Source of the DNA: Desulfobacteraceae bacterium
GTDB lineage: Bacteria; Desulfobacterota; Desulfobacteria; Desulfobacterales; Desulfobacteraceae
Direction of reading: 5' to 3'
Length of the DNA: 6,954 nucleotides
Assembly (NCBI GenBank): GCA_015486915.1
Contig: WFQS01000464.1
Location: forward strand, 1 to 6,954
The notes under the pieces: generated by a model
The model's database searches: none
Told to the model about the DNA's origin: nothing
The model's input: only the letters and a program-made list of their open reading frames with translations
Made by a program: the position numbers and the translations under genes
Shown: positions 1 to 6,724 of the stretch, piece by piece
Layout of the letters: each line of letters begins with the position of its first letter
Position numbering within the stretch: position 1 is the first letter of the stretch

Positions 1-642
1 TTTACAGATCTTCTCGTGGATATCCATGGGATTGATGTGAAAAAAGCCGGTCTTGATTTTATTGGAAAACCCGCAGGATATGTACGCCGCCAGGTTGAGG
101 GATGGACAAAGAGGTATCGCAGGGCAAAAACTGAAGATGCACCGGATTTTGAACCGGTAATGGACTGGCTCGCAGATAAAATGCCTGGTGATACAAAATA
201 TCCCGCAATTGTGCACAATGATTACAAGCTTGACAATGTTGTTCTTCACCCTGAAATGCCTGAAAAAATAATTGGAGTGCTTGACTGGGAAATGGCAACC
301 TTTGGTGATCCTTTAATGGATCTTGGTAACTGCCTTGCCTACTGGGTAGAAAAAAATGATCCCGATGAAATGCAGGTGATCAGGACCATGCCCACTAATC
401 TTGAAGGGGCCATGACCCGGCAGGAGATAGTTGATTTCTACGGGAAAAAAACAGGCAGAAACACGGAACAATTTGATTTTTACTATTGCTTTGGCTTGTT
501 CAGACTTGCCGTGATTGCCCAGCAGATCTATTATCGTTATTTTAACGGAATCACCGATAATAAGAGATTTGCCATGCTGATTTACGTTGTAAGAAGTCTT
601 GAAAAGACAGCTATTAAGGTGATTGAAGCATCTAAATTATAA
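1..642 (+). CDS. APH-like phosphotransferase family protein (ACAD10/ACAD11 kinase-domain type), 5' partial
   Basis: The frame is open from base 1, so the gene begins outside the window; 213 C-terminal residues are visible, where full-length relatives have roughly 340-360. The kinase-like core is clear. HNDYKLDN (bases 214-237) is the Brenner-type catalytic loop HxDxxxxN, with the catalytic Asp at 220-222 and metal-binding Asn at 235-237. GVLDWEMATFGDP follows, with the second metal-binding Asp at 283-285, then the helical C-lobe. The LDWEMATFGDPLMDLG wording is typical of the phosphotransferases found next to or fused to acyl-CoA dehydrogenases (ACAD10/11, LvaA). Members of that group phosphorylate hydroxyacyl-CoA substrates; drug phosphorylation is unlikely here. 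A 79-bp gap separates it from the acyl-CoA synthetase, consistent with one operon. The family call is firm; the substrate is inferred. A GTG at 16 is merely an internal codon. Confidence 0.88.
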   Translation, partial: FTDLLVDIHGIDVKKAGLDFIGKPAGYVRRQVEGWTKRYRRAKTEDAPDFEPVMDWLADKMPGDTKYPAIVHNDYKLDNVVLHPEMPEKIIGVLDWEMATFGDPLMDLGNCLAYWVEKNDPDEMQVIRTMPTNLEGAMTRQEIVDFYGKKTGRNTEQFDFYYCFGLFRLAVIAQQIYYRYFNGITDNKRFAMLIYVVRSLEKTAIKVIEASKL

Positions 643-652
643 ATTTGTGAAG

Positions 653-671
653 ATGGAATATACACTTCCAT
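653..671 (+). repeat. Short inverted repeat between phosphotransferase and acyl-CoA synthetase genes
   Basis: ATGGAA (653-658) and TTCCAT (666-671) are perfect complements around a 7-nt loop. No T-run follows, so it does not look like a terminator. It could be a weak mRNA hairpin or an operator half-site pair in the 79-bp gap; it could also be chance in AT-rich DNA. Confidence 0.3.
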
Positions 672-710
672 ATCATTGAAAATACGGAAATCATAAACCG
701 GTAAACATAA

Positions 711-714
711 AGGA
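711..714 (+). promoter_or_regulatory. Ribosome binding site that fixes the acyl-CoA synthetase start
   Basis: AGGA lies 1 base before the ATG at 716 but 7 bases before the in-frame ATG at 722. Only the second spacing suits ribosome binding, so translation is taken to start at 722, two codons later than the longest frame. Confidence 0.6.
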
Positions 715-721
715 AATGATC

Positions 722-2335
722 ATGAATGAAAAATCAAAAAGAATAAGTATGCCTGTACATAAGCTTGCTGATGTTCCTGCCCTTAAAGGTAAACGCCTTG
801 AATTTGACAGCATGGCTGAAATGTTCACTGTAAGAGCCGGTGAAATTCCGGAAAAAAATCATGTACTTTACTATGGTCAGAAAATAACATACAGACAGAC
901 AAATCAACGTGCAAACAGGGTAGCCAATTATCTAAAGGAAAAAGGGGTGAAAAAGGGTGATGTTGTTTCCATCATGATCCCAAATTCTCCTGAAATTTAC
1001 TATACAATGTTTGGCGCCCAGAAGCTTGGTGCCATAGCCGGAATAATAAATTTTGCTTTAAAGGGACCGGAAATTGCCCATGTTCTTGATGATTCAAAGC
1101 CCAAAATTGTGTTTGTGGCAAGTGAATTCATGGAATTTTTCTCCCGTGCCTTTGAGATTGCCAGCCACAGACCTGTTCTTGTGGAAGTTAAAACCGAAAA
1201 AGAACACAATTTTGATATTGCAGAGCAGAATCTTTCGGATATCTTAGAAAAGTATCCTGCCGATGAAACACTGGTACCCCAAGCCCCTTCCGATCCTTTT
1301 CTGCTTTTGTATTCATCCGGGACAACCGGACTTCCCAAGGGGATTTTATTGTCAAACCAGGGCCAGTTAAATACATGCTGCGGCATGTCAACAATAGGGC
1401 TTGTACCAACGGAAAATGAAACCATGCTGATCCTGCTTCCAATGTACCATATTAATCCAATTGGAGTGTGGACATATCCACTTACATTCATGGGTCAGAC
1501 AATCTGTATCAGAAAAGCTTTCTCACCTGCTGATTTCTGGCCTTCAATCATTGAAAATCAGGTTACCGTCCTCATGGGAGTGCCTGCCATGTATAATTAT
1601 GTTTATTATTCAATAGATGCTTCCACCATAGATATGCCAAATCTTAAATTAAAATTTGCCTTCAGCGGAGCAGCACCTTTATCCGTTGATCTGATCAGGG
1701 GATTTAAAGAAAAATTTAATGTTGAAATAATCGAGGGATACGGACTTACAGAAGCCATAGGAGTTTCAAGCGTTAATCCTCCCATGGGAAAAAGAAAACC
1801 CGGATCATGCGGACTTGCATTACCCGGCCAGGAAATTGAGATCATGGATTACGACAATAAAATTGTTCCTGCAGGAGAAAAAGGCGAGGTGTGTGTCAGG
1901 GGAAACAATACAATGATAGAGTATCTGAACAATCCTGAAGCTACGGAAGACACCCTGATTGACGGCTGGCTGCACACCGGAGATATAGGATATCTCGATG
2001 AAGAAGGCTTTTTATATGTCATTGACAGAAAAAAAGATATGATTAACCGCGGGGGTGAGAATATTTACCCAAGGGAAATTGAAATTGTGCTTGAGTCACA
2101 TCCGGATATCAATGCCGTGGCAGTTGTCGGAGTTTTCGATGAGGCACTTGGTGAAAGGGTGAAAGCCTTTATTGAACCATTGGAATCCGGCAGATTGACA
2201 GGCGAAATGGTTAAAGAATATCTAAAAGACAAGGTGGCAAAGTACAAGGTTCCTGAGTTCATAGAAATCGTTGAGACGCTTCCGAGAAATCCCACTGGTA
2301 AAATTCTTAAATATGAGTTGAGAAAAAAAGATTAA
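722..2335 (+). CDS. AMP-forming acyl-CoA synthetase (fatty acid/carboxylate-CoA ligase)
   Basis: A 537-residue ANL-superfamily adenylating enzyme that would activate a carboxylic acid with ATP and CoA through an acyl-AMP intermediate in the cytoplasm. Visible motifs in order are: the P-loop YSSGTTGLPKG at about residues 197-207; the A5 motif GYGLTE at 339-344; the HTGD motif at 418-421, with Asp421 for ribose binding; the hinge and A8 region DRKKDMINRGGENIYPREIE starting at 435; and NPTGKIL with the adenylation Lys at about 527. Every catalytic motif is present and the length is normal for medium/long-chain acyl-CoA ligases. There is no signal peptide or membrane segment. The chain-length range cannot be read from sequence; CoA ligases of this type are often named FadD-like. 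It lies between the phosphotransferase and an SDR 31 bp downstream, all on the same strand, so its substrate is probably the acid feeding that pathway. Confidence 0.93.
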   Translation: MNEKSKRISMPVHKLADVPALKGKRLEFDSMAEMFTVRAGEIPEKNHVLYYGQKITYRQTNQRANRVANYLKEKGVKKGDVVSIMIPNSPEIYYTMFGAQKLGAIAGIINFALKGPEIAHVLDDSKPKIVFVASEFMEFFSRAFEIASHRPVLVEVKTEKEHNFDIAEQNLSDILEKYPADETLVPQAPSDPFLLLYSSGTTGLPKGILLSNQGQLNTCCGMSTIGLVPTENETMLILLPMYHINPIGVWTYPLTFMGQTICIRKAFSPADFWPSIIENQVTVLMGVPAMYNYVYYSIDASTIDMPNLKLKFAFSGAAPLSVDLIRGFKEKFNVEIIEGYGLTEAIGVSSVNPPMGKRKPGSCGLALPGQEIEIMDYDNKIVPAGEKGEVCVRGNNTMIEYLNNPEATEDTLIDGWLHTGDIGYLDEEGFLYVIDRKKDMINRGGENIYPREIEIVLESHPDINAVAVVGVFDEALGERVKAFIEPLESGRLTGEMVKEYLKDKVAKYKVPEFIEIVETLPRNPTGKILKYELRKKD

Positions 2336-2366
2336 TGATAAAAGATAGAAATAGAGGGAAACTGAA

Positions 2367-3119
2367 ATGAAAGATTTTGATCTTAGTGGAAGAACAGCAG
2401 TTATAACAGGTGCCAGCAGGGGAATAGGCCTTGCAATTGCGGAAAAACTTGCCCGGTACGGGGCAAAGTGCATATTGGTGAGCCGCAGAGCTGAGACCCT
2501 TGAAGCTGCTGCAGCAAAAATTGTGGAAAAAGGCGGACAGGCAGATGTAATGGTCTGCAATACAGGTTATCCTGATCAGATCAAAGCGATGTATGATGAT
2601 ATTTTAAAGTCATACGATTCCATTGATATTCTGGTGAACAATGCTGCGGCCAACCCGTATTTCGGGGAGATGATCGGGGCTGATCAGTCCATATGGGACA
2701 AAACGCTTGAGGTGAATCTTAAAGGTCCTTTTTTCATGATAAAATATGCTGTTCCCCTGATGAAAGACCGGGGGGCAATAGTAAATGTTTCTTCGGTTAA
2801 TGCCGTAAAACCAGCACTTTACCAGGGGGTTTATTCTGCCACAAAGGCTGCTCTTTTAAGTATGACAAAGACCCTTGCCATGGAACTTGCACCAAAGGGA
2901 ATCAGGGTAAATGCTCTGCTGCCGGGTTTAACCGATACAAAATTTGCAAGTGCAATCATCTCTTCCGATGAAATATGCAGTAAGGCTTTAACCCAGATTC
3001 CCATGGCAAGATATGCAGAACCTGAAGAAATGGCAGGAGCCGTGCTGTACCTTGTTTCGGATGCAGCCTCGTTCACAACTGGTACGGCTCTTGTGTGCGA
3101 CGGCGGTATGGTGTTATAA
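2367..3119 (+). CDS. Short-chain dehydrogenase/reductase (DHRS4-like SDR)
   Basis: A 250-residue classical SDR that would oxidise or reduce a hydroxyl/carbonyl group with NAD(P)(H). The cofactor motif TGASRGIG is at residues 14-21 and NNAA at 91-94. The catalytic tetrad is Asn117, Ser143, Tyr156 and Lys160 (YSATK), with normal Ser-13-Tyr and Tyr-4-Lys spacing. After strand beta-2 comes SRR (39-41), basic residues that usually favour NADP(H). The NPYFG stretch (96-100) and VNALLPGLTDTKFAS resemble the DHRS4-type carbonyl reductases often found beside acyl-CoA dehydrogenase and phosphotransferase genes. GAGGG (2354-2358) is a good ribosome binding site 8 bases before the ATG. It is the last gene of the left cluster and is followed by a terminator. 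It could instead be named a 3-oxoacyl reductase (FabG-like), but the neighbours argue for a catabolic role on acyl-CoA. Confidence 0.9.
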   Translation: MKDFDLSGRTAVITGASRGIGLAIAEKLARYGAKCILVSRRAETLEAAAAKIVEKGGQADVMVCNTGYPDQIKAMYDDILKSYDSIDILVNNAAANPYFGEMIGADQSIWDKTLEVNLKGPFFMIKYAVPLMKDRGAIVNVSSVNAVKPALYQGVYSATKAALLSMTKTLAMELAPKGIRVNALLPGLTDTKFASAIISSDEICSKALTQIPMARYAEPEEMAGAVLYLVSDAASFTTGTALVCDGGMVL

Positions 3120-3240: not shown

Positions 3241-3879
3241 ATGATTCAATTCAAAAATGTAGATTTGTCCTTTAATGGTAAAAAAATAATTAACAATCTT
3301 TCCTTTGAAATAAATCAGGGAGAAAAGGTTGTGTTTTCGGGGAAATCCGGCTCCGGAAAAAGTTCTGTATTTAATCTGCTCTTAGGATTTACAGACCCTG
3401 ACAGCGGTGAAATCTTCTTTAAAGAAGAGCTTGTTGATGAAAAGAGCGTATGGGATGTTCGTAAAGATGTTGCCTATATTGATCAGGATGTAAGCCTTGG
3501 TGACGGAAAAGTTGCAGAATTGTTCAACTTTGTTTCAGGTCTTAAGGCAAATGCTTTATTGGATTTCAATGAAAGAAAAATCGATGAGCTCTTAACTTAT
3601 TTCGAACTTGAAGGAGATATTCCTGATAAGAATACAGGGGATCTATCCGGCGGTGAAAGACAGCGCCTGTCCATTGTTATTGCAATTCTTCTTAAAAGGG
3701 ATATTTTCTTCCTTGATGAGGTTACCTCCTCCCTTGACGGGCATCTTAAGCAGAAAGTTGTGGATTATTTTGTGGAGGAAAAAGAGTGGACATGCCTTGT
3801 AAATTCCCATGATTCCATATGGCTTGACAGTCCCGGTGTAAAGATATTTAACCTTGAGGAGGGTAAATGGAAACCATAG
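3241..3879 (+). CDS. fetA: FetA (YbbL)-like ABC transporter ATP-binding protein
   Basis: A 212-residue ABC ATPase powering the membrane partner encoded next. The nucleotide-binding motifs are complete: Walker A GKSGSGKSS (34-42), Q-loop Gln82, signature LSGGERQR (135-142), Walker B DIFFLDE (154-160), D-loop SSLD (163-166) and switch His190. Length and partner fit the FetA/YbbL group; E. coli FetAB is associated with iron export and peroxide resistance, and plant relatives (STAR1/ALS3) with aluminium tolerance. The frame opens upstream at a TTG (3178), but that codon is inside the terminator loop. The ATG at 3241 gives the canonical start MIQFKNVDLSF, although its ribosome binding site is weak (GGA at 3233-3235). 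The stop codon lies 13 bp inside fetB, indicating translational coupling. Substrate assignment to iron is by homology only. Confidence 0.88.
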   Translation: MIQFKNVDLSFNGKKIINNLSFEINQGEKVVFSGKSGSGKSSVFNLLLGFTDPDSGEIFFKEELVDEKSVWDVRKDVAYIDQDVSLGDGKVAELFNFVSGLKANALLDFNERKIDELLTYFELEGDIPDKNTGDLSGGERQRLSIVIAILLKRDIFFLDEVTSSLDGHLKQKVVDYFVEEKEWTCLVNSHDSIWLDSPGVKIFNLEEGKWKP

Positions 3880-4667
3880 ATCTTTCTGTATTTTCACTGG
3901 GTTTGACATTTCTTCTGCTTGCCGTACCCGTTATTCTGAGTCTGGTTTACGGTCTTGGTTTAATTAAATCTCTTTTTTACTCCGCAGCGAGGATGACAAT
4001 TCAGCTTGTTTTGATCGGGATTTTTTTAAAATATCTTTTTTTGTGGAATAACACATTAATCAATTTTTCCTGGTTAATTGTCATGATTCTTGTGGCTGTT
4101 TTATCTGCCGTAAAAAGTTCTGCCGTCAAAATCAGTAAAATTGTAATCCCATGCTTTCTGTCATTTTCCATTGCCACTTTTGCTGTTATTATGTATCTGA
4201 ACATTGTGGTTATTCCAATTGATAATATTTTTGATGCAAGATATCTCATTGTCCTTGGCGGCATGCTGCTTGGTAATTCTCTCAGGGGCAATATAGTGGG
4301 TATCAGTACATTTTATAAAAATATCAGGAATGATACAAAAAAGTATTTGTATGTGTTATCCCTTGGTGCTTCCCGGTATGAGGCACTTCTGCCATATATC
4401 AGGGAGAGCATTAACCTTGCCTTAAAACCGACTCTTGCTGCCATGGCGACCATGGGTATTGTTGCTCTGCCCGGCATGATGACAGGAGTTATTCTTGGGG
4501 GTGCAGACCCCGAGGTTGCGATTAAATACCAGATTATGATCATGGTCGCAATTGTAACAAGTACAATAATCAGCGTGGTGCTTACCATATTGATGACTCT
4601 GCCTGCGTGTTTTAACAGGTATGGTGTATTACGCCAGGATATATTTATCAATAAGAATGGTTATTAA
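3867..4667 (+). CDS. fetB: FetB (YbbM)-like ABC transporter permease, UPF0014 family
   Basis: A 266-residue inner-membrane permease. Hydrophobic segments are seen at about residues 8-30, 42-60, 67-83, 92-117, 124-140, 188-210 and 221-246, matching the roughly seven-helix UPF0014 fold. The family hallmark LPGMMTG (201-207), followed by GGADPEVAIKYQ, is intact. The preceding GASRYEALLPYIRES stretch (168-181) is the cytosolic loop expected to contact the ATPase. A very strong ribosome binding site, GAGGAGGG (3856-3863), sits inside the end of fetA just before the ATG, and the two genes overlap by 13 bp, so subunits are likely made together. FetAB homologues export iron or another metal; direction and metal are inferred from the family. 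No substrate-binding protein is encoded nearby, consistent with an exporter. Confidence 0.9.
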   Translation: METIDLSVFSLGLTFLLLAVPVILSLVYGLGLIKSLFYSAARMTIQLVLIGIFLKYLFLWNNTLINFSWLIVMILVAVLSAVKSSAVKISKIVIPCFLSFSIATFAVIMYLNIVVIPIDNIFDARYLIVLGGMLLGNSLRGNIVGISTFYKNIRNDTKKYLYVLSLGASRYEALLPYIRESINLALKPTLAAMATMGIVALPGMMTGVILGGADPEVAIKYQIMIMVAIVTSTIISVVLTILMTLPACFNRYGVLRQDIFINKNGY

Positions 4668-4956: not shown

Positions 4957-5301
4957 ATGGAAAAAGTAGTTGTAATAGGATGCGGATCATACATGGATGC
5001 CGGATATGGATGTCCCGGGGAATGGAGATGCCTTAAAGCTGCTGCCTTGGGAGAGGGAAAATTTGATGAAGAGTCCCAGGTCGTTGGATTTGTTAAATGT
5101 GAGTGCCCCGGCCGCACAATGGTTCCAAATACAGGTATGACCATAAAAGTTTCTGAGCTTAAACCCGATAAAATTTATCTGTCATCCTGTATGGTTGGTG
5201 CAAAACCGGAGTGTCCGTACTCAACCCCGGAGGAAAAGGCTGAAATGCTTCAAAATGCTTTTGGGATAGATGTTGTCCTTGGAACACATGATTATCATTA
5301 A
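4957..5301 (+). CDS. Small cysteine-rich protein, CGGC-domain-like, putative metal binding
   Basis: A 114-residue soluble protein with seven cysteines (9, 19, 25, 48, 50, 78, 86) and a C-terminal HDYH (His111, His114). The layout follows the CGGC family: an N-terminal hydrophobic strand ending in Cys9, CPGEWRC (19-25), VGFVKCECPG at about 43-52 where family members have CGGCPG, then LSSCMVG (75-81) and CPY (86-88). CGGC proteins are thought to bind metal, but no reaction is established. The departure here is CxC (Cys48-Glu49-Cys50) in place of CGGC. An excellent ribosome binding site, AAGGAG (4945-4950), lies 6 bases before the ATG. The gene is convergent with the flavoprotein selenoprotein and shares its terminator. 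Function is unknown; a redox or metal (Fe-S, Zn, Ni) role is inference from the cysteines. Confidence 0.72.
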   Translation: MEKVVVIGCGSYMDAGYGCPGEWRCLKAAALGEGKFDEESQVVGFVKCECPGRTMVPNTGMTIKVSELKPDKIYLSSCMVGAKPECPYSTPEEKAEMLQNAFGIDVVLGTHDYH

Positions 5302-5321: not shown

Positions 5322-5358
5322 AAATGCGGGGCAGTGCATATGGCACTGCCCCGTATTT
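5322..5358. terminator. Bidirectional rho-independent terminator between convergent genes
   Basis: CGGGGCAGTGC (5327-5337) and GCACTGCCCCG (5343-5353) form a perfect 11-bp GC-rich stem with a 5-nt loop. AAAT (5322-5325) and ATTT (5355-5358) extend it around a G-T pair. A T-rich tail follows on +, and A/T-rich bases mirror it on -. It ends the CGGC-like gene and overlaps the stop codon of the - strand flavoprotein, serving both. Confidence 0.9.
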
Positions 5359-6710
5359 TATTTCAATTTCTGTAAAGCCTGTTCAGCTGCAATTGCAATT
5401 GGTTCCATACTTGGTTCCGAAGAAATGTCGGGGTTGCTGGCCGATGTAAACATGGTCAGTTCAGGAACGGTTTTTCCACCCATGATGAATCCTGTAATTG
5501 CATCAATTTCCCTTGCCGGCGGAACAGCATGACTGACAATCTGACCGCCTATAATTTTCTGGGTTTTTCTGTCAAAAATAAGCTTGATTCTCCACGGTTT
5601 CATCCCTGGAATCATTCCGTGTTTGCTCCTTGAATCAACCGTGGCACAGACTGTTTCAAATCCTTCTTTTTCAGCCATTTCTTCACTGAAACCAGTTGCA
5701 CTGATTACAAGATCGAACATCTGGCATCCACCTGCATTAAGTACTCCGGGGAATTTGATATCGTAACCTGCAAGACGTTTGGCTGCAAGACGTCCCTGTA
5801 CCACTGCAGGACCTCTTAACCTTCCACCCTCAGGCTTTTTTGTGATGTAATTTGTTTTTTCAACACAGTCACCCGTGGCAAGAATATCCGGGTTGGATGT
5901 TTCCTGAAATTCGTTTACCTTTATGCCAAGCCTTGTTATCTCAAGTCCTATATCCTCGGCAAGCTTAACATTGGGTCTTACACCGACATTGACAAACACC
6001 ATGTCAGCTTCAAGTTTTTCTCCCGATGCAAGTTCAACACCGGTAACCCTGCCGTCTGCTCCCAGGATTTTATCAACTTTCTTGCCCGTGAGGATTTTAA
6101 GGCCTTTTTCTTCAAGATACTCCTGAACCAGATCAGCCATATCTTTATCAAGCATAAGGGGAAGAGGACGATTGAGAAATTCAATAACGGTTATATCAAA
6201 AGCACCTGGATTCTGTGCAGAAAGAAGGGAAGCAATCTCCATTGTAATAAAACCTGCACCAATGAAAACTATTTTTTTAGGAGAGTTGTCTTTAATAAAG
6301 GCTTTTATTTCTTCTGCATCATCAAGACCACGTAATGACATAACTCCTTTTAGATCCCTGCCTTCAAATGGAGGTATAAAAGAGCTTGATCCGGTTGCAA
6401 GAATCAGTTTGTCATAATTTAATTTTTTACCGCCTGCTGTTGTTATATTTTTATTTTTAGAATCAATTTTTGTTACTTCATCCATTAAGACATTAATACC
6501 TGCACCTTCAAGTTTTTTGTCAGGGACAACAATGGACATTGGAGCGGCCAGACCGGCCACAACATGGGGAAGCGCTCACCGTACAATAAAAAATTTTTCT
6601 TTTCGAATGACTGTTACATCAACTTCAGGCATCAGTTTCTTAGCCATCATTGCAGCAGGTCCACCAGCACCACTGCATCCAACAACAATAAGTTTTTCGC
6701 CTTTTTTCAT
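5358..6710 (-). CDS. Selenocysteine-containing FAD/NAD(P)H disulfide oxidoreductase (NADH oxidase/CoA-disulfide reductase-like)
   Basis: One 450-residue frame read through an in-frame TGA at 6578-6576 (residue 45). N-terminal FAD Rossmann motif: IVVGCSGAGGPAA (8-20). The active-site segment FFIVR-U-ALPHVVAG places Sec45 where CoA-disulfide reductases and NADH oxidases have the catalytic Cys (NCGLPYYIGG-like). Next come LILATGS (102-108), the NAD(P)-binding motif GAGFITME (151-158) with Glu176 ending the second strand (suggesting NADH), and the second FAD motif ATGDC (277-281). A C-terminal dimerisation domain with GGCQMFD (about 326-332) completes the family. It would transfer electrons from NAD(P)H via FAD to a disulfide, polysulfide, peroxide or oxygen; the substrate is unknown. 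Start choice: GAGGAG (6724-6719) lies 8 nt upstream of the ATG at 6710. Read as standard code it would split into a 44-residue peptide and a 400-residue protein lacking the FAD-binding N-terminus. A Cys-to-stop mutation or sequencing error is the alternative, but homology continues unbroken and a SECIS-like hairpin is present. Confidence 0.87.
6540..6578 (-). promoter_or_regulatory. Bacterial SECIS-like element with its Sec UGA codon
   Basis: In the mRNA (- strand), UGA at 6578-6576 is followed 21 nt later by an apical loop GGUCU (6554-6550). The loop is closed by GUGGCC (6560-6555) pairing with GGCCGC (6549-6544): six pairs, one G-U. Two more pairs (G6563-C6541, U6564-A6540) can form below a small internal loop. 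GGUCU is the apical loop I know from E. coli fdhF, where loop G and U residues contact SelB, and there it lies 18 nt after UGA. An alternative outer stem, GAGCG (6577-6573) with CGCUC (6546-6542), would compete with the three outermost pairs of the inner stem. Function is inferred from structure and codon position. Confidence 0.75.
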
Positions 6711-6718
6711 AATTTGAT

Positions 6719-6724
6719 CTCCTC
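6719..6724 (-). promoter_or_regulatory. Ribosome binding site of the selenoprotein gene
   Basis: GAGGAG on the - strand sits 8 nt before the ATG at 6710-6708. It selects this start over upstream in-frame codons as far as 6794, whose translation would be Lys-rich and unlike the family N-terminus. Confidence 0.8.

Follow-up and report, generated by a model that had tools for sequence, protein, structure and literature searches.

A predicted selenocysteine-containing subfamily of single-thiol flavin reductases, mostly from Desulfobacterota, with a histidine that seems coupled to selenocysteine

Introduction

NADH peroxidase, CoA-disulfide reductase and NAD-dependent persulfide reductase are single-thiol flavin reductases. 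In NADH peroxidase, one redox residue cycles through a sulfenic acid (also named in the title of structure entry 1nhs), and in CoA-disulfide reductase a tyrosine pair, Y361/Y419, reaches the thiol site. Selenocysteine (Sec) forms of such enzymes have been catalogued before. In published surveys, a Sec "NADH oxidase" is listed for Geobacter metallireducens (PMC1794560), a Sec FAD-dependent oxidoreductase of COG0446 (accession WP_011365774.1) appears in a 2022 review (PMC9312934), and one Sec "NADH oxidase" entry is found in the GOS ocean survey set (PMC2398784); the first two sources agree with the sequence-only reading that preceded this analysis, which had mentioned Sec forms of NADH-oxidase-like proteins in deltaproteobacterial selenoproteomes. 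By its description, the Geobacter protein resembles the one reported here in being a deltaproteobacterial COG0446-type flavin reductase with Sec. Since none of the 60 loci of our contig scan, which picks up close relatives only, is titled Geobacter, the published protein may belong to another clade. In the portions of the open-licence literature covered by our search, we found no description of the Sec clade analysed below or of its Sec/His tie. The Sec flavin reductase as a kind is thus already known, and what is new here is a separate subfamily, the presence of Sec in two clades, and His49.

Results and Discussion

An In-Frame TGA at the Catalytic Position

The window, that is, the whole 6,954-nucleotide stretch of Desulfobacteraceae DNA that was analysed, carries on its minus strand a frame of 450 codons that runs to a terminal TAA with a single interruption, a TGA at codon 45, flanked by the residues FFIVR[U]ALPHVVAG (Table 1). 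Reading of the minus strand bears out the sequence-only reading in its placing of this lone TGA and in the flanking residues. It had also expected gene callers to report a 400-residue protein from GTG 6560 without the FAD-binding N terminus, and the mechanical table-11 ORF is exactly this one, lacking the first 50 residues, including the FAD-binding glycine loop. When TGA is read through, there are nine frames of at least 150 aa in the window; the other TGA-containing ones lie antisense to ordinary genes or are an upstream extension of one.

Table 1. Features of the selenoprotein locus (window positions)
Feature	Position	Strand	Basis
Selenoprotein gene (predicted), 450-residue FAD/NAD(P)H-dependent enzyme of disulfide-reductase fold	5358..6710	-	ATG 6710, TAA 5360-5358
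TGA codon 45, read as Sec (predicted), catalytic Cys position	6576..6578	-	Orthologue comparison, alignment
Ribosome-binding site GAGGAG ahead of ATG 6710	6719..6724	-	Sequence; GGAG/AGGA in 43/43 orthologues
Predicted bSECIS stem-loop, 6 bp stem, loop GGUCU at 6554-6550	6544..6560	-	Comparison across orthologues
His49 codon, residue tied to Sec45	6564..6566	-	His 43/43 Sec clade
Cys12 codon in FAD-binding glycine loop, candidate second thiol	6675..6677	-	Cys 42/43 of clade
CGGC-domain (PF08821) Cys-rich small protein, convergent neighbour	4957..5301	+	1e-21

All 47 distinct orthologues in which codon 45 can be read have TGA there. These comprise the window, 43 loci of the contig scan (those of its 60 that are close orthologues covering codon 45) and L069, L071 and L092 from a survey of phylum genomes; L040 does not cover the codon, and duplicate entries for genes already counted (L065-L068, L070, L072-L074 and, in some counts, L093) were left out. 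The 43-row alignment used for the counts below omits four short or frame-broken matches, all with TGA (L041, L043, L056 and L071). At first and second positions, the codons ahead of the TGA are more conserved than those behind it, with mean differences at positions 1/2/3 of 0.202/0.065/0.557 for codons 2-44 in these 43 orthologues and of 0.307/0.245 at positions 1/2 for codons 46-100. GGAG or AGGA lies upstream of codon 1 in all 43, and the start codons are ATG (39), GTG (3) and TTG (1). Because the TGA is invariant and codons 2-44 show the substitution pattern of a coding sequence, its position is not a matter of chance, and the frame is almost certainly, on this comparative evidence, a selenoprotein gene and not a broken one. 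Two loci have irregularities of their own: L039 carries an additional in-frame TAG at codon 37, ahead of the Sec codon (one assembly; an error or decay), and the orthologue of Desulfothermus okinawensis (L041) is split over two frames in a draft assembly.

In a wider alignment of 81 rows (E 1e-25, at least 370 residues), all 44 rows of the clade (43 distinct) have TGA at codon 45, as do all 8 of a second clade; the other 29 rows have Cys. The column confined to Sec and Cys that the sequence-only reading had foreseen is thus found in all 81 rows; two far more distant local matches with 25-27% identity, L059 and an additional match in L024, align Pro there and fall outside this alignment. In Bathyarchaeota and Thermoplasmata, distant relatives carry TGT or TGC at this codon. 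Among 395 phylum genomes, surveyed with at most four candidates scored per genome, seven have an orthologue of at least 55% identity, six with TGA and one with TGT (G307, L070/L088). The orthologues with TGA include those of two isolates, Desulfosarcina widdelii and D. alkanivorans (L023, L025).

A collection of 5.8 billion proteins was searched as well. Of the best 120 listed, 119 have an alignment that sets in only at residue 47-75, and P0002, which is among these, is the window's own short ORF except for two residues. A conserved enzyme, mostly of sulfate-reducer lineages, is in this way cut short, with its FAD-binding end lost, in 119 of the 120 best listed entries. The sole full-length protein among them, P0008, is 73% identical to the window protein and has Cys at position 45, where it reads FFIVRCALPYVVAG. 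A search of limited sensitivity for further Cys forms of the clade returned, among 96 candidates, only P0008 itself.

A Stem-Loop Maintained Downstream of the UGA

The sequence GUGGCC-GGUCU-GGCCGC, which starts 15 nt past the UGA and has GTG 6560 as its first base, is a predicted bSECIS stem-loop maintained by compensatory changes. All six stem pairs are kept in 39 of 43 orthologues and five in the other four. Stem cells are paired at 98.4%, compared with 95.2% in shuffles (43 sequences, 42 distinct), nine cells are changed on both sides, and the covariation score is 0.274 versus 0.211 in shuffles; none of these values was reached by any of 500 shuffles. The numbers of stem pairs with a double change and of further pair types are weaker, each being reached by 22 of 500. 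Slid partners pair at only 17-51%, and RNAalifold independently drew five of the six pairs, the fold alignment (A2) consisting of 40 chosen rows. The window's stem, folded singly, is no more stable than its shuffles (z -0.39). Codon choice is also skewed here: Gly53 ranks first in codon bias among 202 conserved columns, with GGT in 40 of 43 orthologues (GGT makes up 21.5% of the other Gly codons of these genes), and columns 51, 52, 53 and 54 rank 4, 8, 1 and 6 in synonymous bias. We take the GGUCU loop to resemble that of the Escherichia coli fdhF element.

The Cys relative L088 (TGT) still forms five of the six pairs, with the loop GGCCU, and 27 other Cys rows that were checked form one to four. 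Absence of the stem from L088 is thereby ruled out. Its pairing suggests either that the stem is a relic there, L088 then possibly being a reversion to Cys, or that the pairs follow in part from the shared peptide sequence. An Rfam scan of the window gave only a sub-threshold L20_leader match, which was dropped.

Decoding of Codon 45

Of the Sec machinery that the sequence-only reading had named for a check, selB and tRNA-Sec were looked for in relatives. Among 13 related genomes with orthologues, selB is over the cut-off in 10 and tRNA-Sec in 12. The misses (selB in the genomes of L002, L003 and L005, tRNA-Sec in that of L002) are all in metagenome assemblies, and two of the three genomes missing selB contain selB fragments at contig ends. 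In 14 control genomes, some of which may themselves use Sec, the tRNA-Sec cut-off is passed in five and that of selB in two. TGA serves as an ordinary stop in the same surroundings: closed neighbour ORFs that reach 250 aa (mechanical calls, one duplicated locus included) end in it in 74 of 182 cases, and the orthologue genes themselves in 11 of 40.

An ordinary stop at codon 45 would leave a 44-residue peptide or a pseudogene, followed by a separate 400-residue protein from GTG 6560, the short form that gene callers report as the table-11 ORF and in 119 of 120 listed database proteins. We regard this as very improbable, given that the codon is never TAA or TAG in the 47 distinct orthologues, that codons 2-44 are the more conserved at positions 1 and 2 with third positions free, that all 43 aligned orthologues have a ribosome site ahead of codon 1, and that the short form would begin on the first base of the stem and lack the FAD-binding loop. 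Cys at codon 45 in more distant relatives could be taken to mean that a sequencing or assembly error has replaced TGC or TGT, but the identical TGA in 46 other distinct loci, the two isolates included, and the conserved stem-loop that accompanies it leave such an error hardly any probability. A genome-wide reassignment of TGA, as in a Trp or Gly code, would be in keeping with the fact that no complete gene in the window ends in TGA; it is, however, at odds with the TGA-terminated neighbour ORFs and orthologues, with the Cys of relatives at codon 45 and with the Sec gene being the only one in the window that needs TGA read, and can be considered negligible. Decoding of codon 45 as Sec, taken jointly with the enzyme class assigned below, is to our judgement highly probable.

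A Separate Clade within the Single-Thiol Flavin Reductases

The encoded protein is homologous to the single-thiol flavin reductases. Pfam finds Pyr_redox_2 (2.4e-57, residues 6-286) and the dimerisation domain Pyr_redox_dim (1.2e-10) in the 450-aa protein, and no rhodanese domain. The best solved fold matches of its AF2 model (pLDDT 92.6, pTM 0.88) are the persulfide reductase 6pfz, CoA-disulfide reductases and NADH peroxidase. The Archaeoglobus fulgidus NAD-dependent persulfide reductase 6pfz shares the fold (Foldseek E 6.8e-50, TM 0.90) and, by alignment, the single catalytic thiol position, but it has Cys instead of Sec, belongs to a separate clade and is longer, with 535-541 residues resolved and 551 in the chain versus 450. 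NADH peroxidase (1npx) likewise shares the fold (Foldseek E 1.5e-44) and has Cys instead of Sec. Its His10 presumably falls on Gly14 of the window protein, in a loop aligned by eye.

The best curated model is CoA-disulfide reductase, yet all models of this family score far below cut-off (TIGR03385, 260.4/578.8; NF007123, 239.8/458; NF010037, 147.2/394 bits), as does that of the H2O-forming NADH oxidase (NF046103, 180.3/600). The tyrosine pair of CoA-disulfide reductase, mapped by eye from the positions Y361/Y419 named in PDB titles, is absent: columns 366/367 are Met/Ile in 43 of 43, and column 425 has Ser, Cys, Gly or a gap and no Tyr. By curated score and tyrosine columns, the protein is therefore predicted not to be a CoA-disulfide reductase. 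Of the sequence-only reading, then, the flavin disulfide reductase with Sec in place of the catalytic Cys stands, through the fold and the TGA/Cys column, and the CoA-disulfide reductase identity does not.

In a tree with references (31 rows, 6 from the clade), a 100/100 branch parts the clade and its Cys relatives from 6pfz, 6ruz and 3iwa, which group with the second Sec clade, and a larger tree without references (54 rows, 18 from the clade) has the same 100/100 split. Phylogenetically, the window protein and its orthologues thus form a separate subfamily, mostly from Desulfobacterota.

His49 Seems to Be Tied to Sec45

Residue 49, which shares helix 44-51 of the AF2 model with Sec45, is His in all 43 Sec members of the window's clade. 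The 35 other rows, among them those of the second Sec clade, all have Tyr or Phe. The Cys form P0008, which is counted apart from these 35, has Tyr. In the 54-row tree, P0008 lies inside the Sec clade on starred branches, and this nesting marks it as a probable return to Cys. It departs from the 154 clade-conserved columns at four only (26, 45, 49 and 187). Furthermore, 24 columns part the clade from the Cys relative L088, which stands just outside the Sec clade in the 54-row tree and is not separated from it in the 31-row tree, and P0008 has the L088 state at exactly two of these, 45 and 49, which suggests that Sec45 and His49 were lost together. The two residues thus seem to be coupled, a sharp lead that comes from one reversion event and from one protein sequence whose DNA was not seen. 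Since the second Sec clade keeps Tyr, Sec does not in general require His49 in this fold. A second hallmark of the window's clade is Cys12, which is found in 42 of its 43 members and in 2 of the 35 other rows, and is present in P0008.

A second Sec clade (S2; L080-L087, with further members L094-L101) has the motif [SA]U[ELP]xPYYIGD. At least eight matches with one TGA in the phylum survey, 32-36% identical to the window protein in that survey and 31-34% by tblastn, belong to it, and the class of G152 has an S2 member in 8 of 23 genomes, with one TGA in 8 of 8. S2 resembles the window's clade in its Sec at the same catalytic position (8 of 8 by alignment) and in coming from the same phylum sample. 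It differs in having Tyr instead of His four residues past Sec and in its stem-loop, TACATC-GGN-GATGTA, found downstream of the TGA in 8 of 8. It groups with the CoA-disulfide/persulfide reductases, and its CoA-disulfide-reductase scores are higher, though still under cut-off. The best 120 database hits listed for S2 are about 370-405 aa long, or 81-88% of the query, and so are probably truncated too.

Because Cys relatives occur to either side of the deep branch, the trees are most simply read as showing that each clade gained Sec separately; a single gain followed by many losses is a possible alternative. The composite view that a U-x-x-P-H subfamily gained Sec apart from the CoA-disulfide-reductase-like clade, and that Sec and His were swapped as a pair on the return to Cys, is one on which we are evenly divided. 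If it is true, it would provide a built-in two-residue rule for what enables this Cys enzyme to work with Sec (U-x-x-P-H versus C-x-x-P-Y), and the His49 tie makes the question of what else changes when Cys becomes Sec testable by one or two point changes. Two Sec clades, each with Cys relatives, together with one Cys reversion amount to a natural experiment on the reasons for retaining Sec.

A Possible Catalytic Cycle and Its Substrate

In the mechanism that we propose, the ribosome would start at ATG 6710, and SelB with tRNA-Sec would decode the UGA at codon 45 as Sec, guided by the downstream stem-loop, so placing Sec45 in the position of the single catalytic Cys beside the flavin. NADH would reduce FAD, FAD would reduce Sec45 to the selenolate, and the selenolate would attack the substrate, forming a selenenic acid or a selenenyl-sulfide that is re-reduced by NADH via FAD. 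His49, one helix turn past Sec45, could act in proton transfer or in holding the selenolate, and Cys12 is a possible second or resolving thiol partner.

Our best guess for the substrate, a tentative one, is a peroxide, turned over in a cycle like that of NADH peroxidase; we lean this way because the protein has neither the CoA-disulfide tyrosines nor a rhodanese domain and because a few genes of oxidative stress lie nearby. A low-molecular persulfide or disulfide is only slightly less probable, and the rest of the probability falls to some other substrate. With a persulfide or disulfide as substrate, the same selenoprotein would act as a reductase of the persulfide/CoA-disulfide type instead of as a peroxidase, a role for which the best fold match, a persulfide reductase, and the best curated model, CoA-disulfide reductase, both speak, but which we hold to be doubtful in view of the scores far under cut-off, the Met/Ile and Ser/Cys/Gly in the eye-mapped tyrosine columns, the missing rhodanese domain and the 100/100 branch away from 6pfz, 6ruz and 3iwa.

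Gene Neighbourhood

No common operon surrounds the orthologues in the 44 loci examined. Stress-related neighbours comprise Hsp33 (3 loci), di-haem peroxidase (3), thioredoxin-like proteins (3) and prismane (1), with each family identified on one representative and given as a raw count, and this context is weak and too sparse to fix the function. A CGGC-domain gene lies within 250 nt of the orthologue in five loci (the window, L035, L037, L038 and L039), in both orientations relative to the Sec gene, and 3.6-4.7 kb upstream of it in L018 and L022; there are 0-3 copies per genome in 14 genomes. Judging by this proximity, the CGGC-domain protein is a likely partner of the Sec enzyme.

In nine distinct loci, the Sec gene has a Cys-type paralogue of the same fold, belonging to one of two different subfamilies, no more than about 4 kb away, downstream in L007, L008, L010, L012 and L069 and upstream in L001, L005, L014 and L021. 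Elsewhere in the window, positions 3241-4667 hold ATP-binding and membrane genes resembling FetA/FetB (UPF0014), with a FetB score of 119.6/410 bits, below cut-off, and positions 1-3119 hold in a row genes for an APH-family protein, an acyl-CoA ligase and an SDR, resembling an acyl-CoA degradation cluster.
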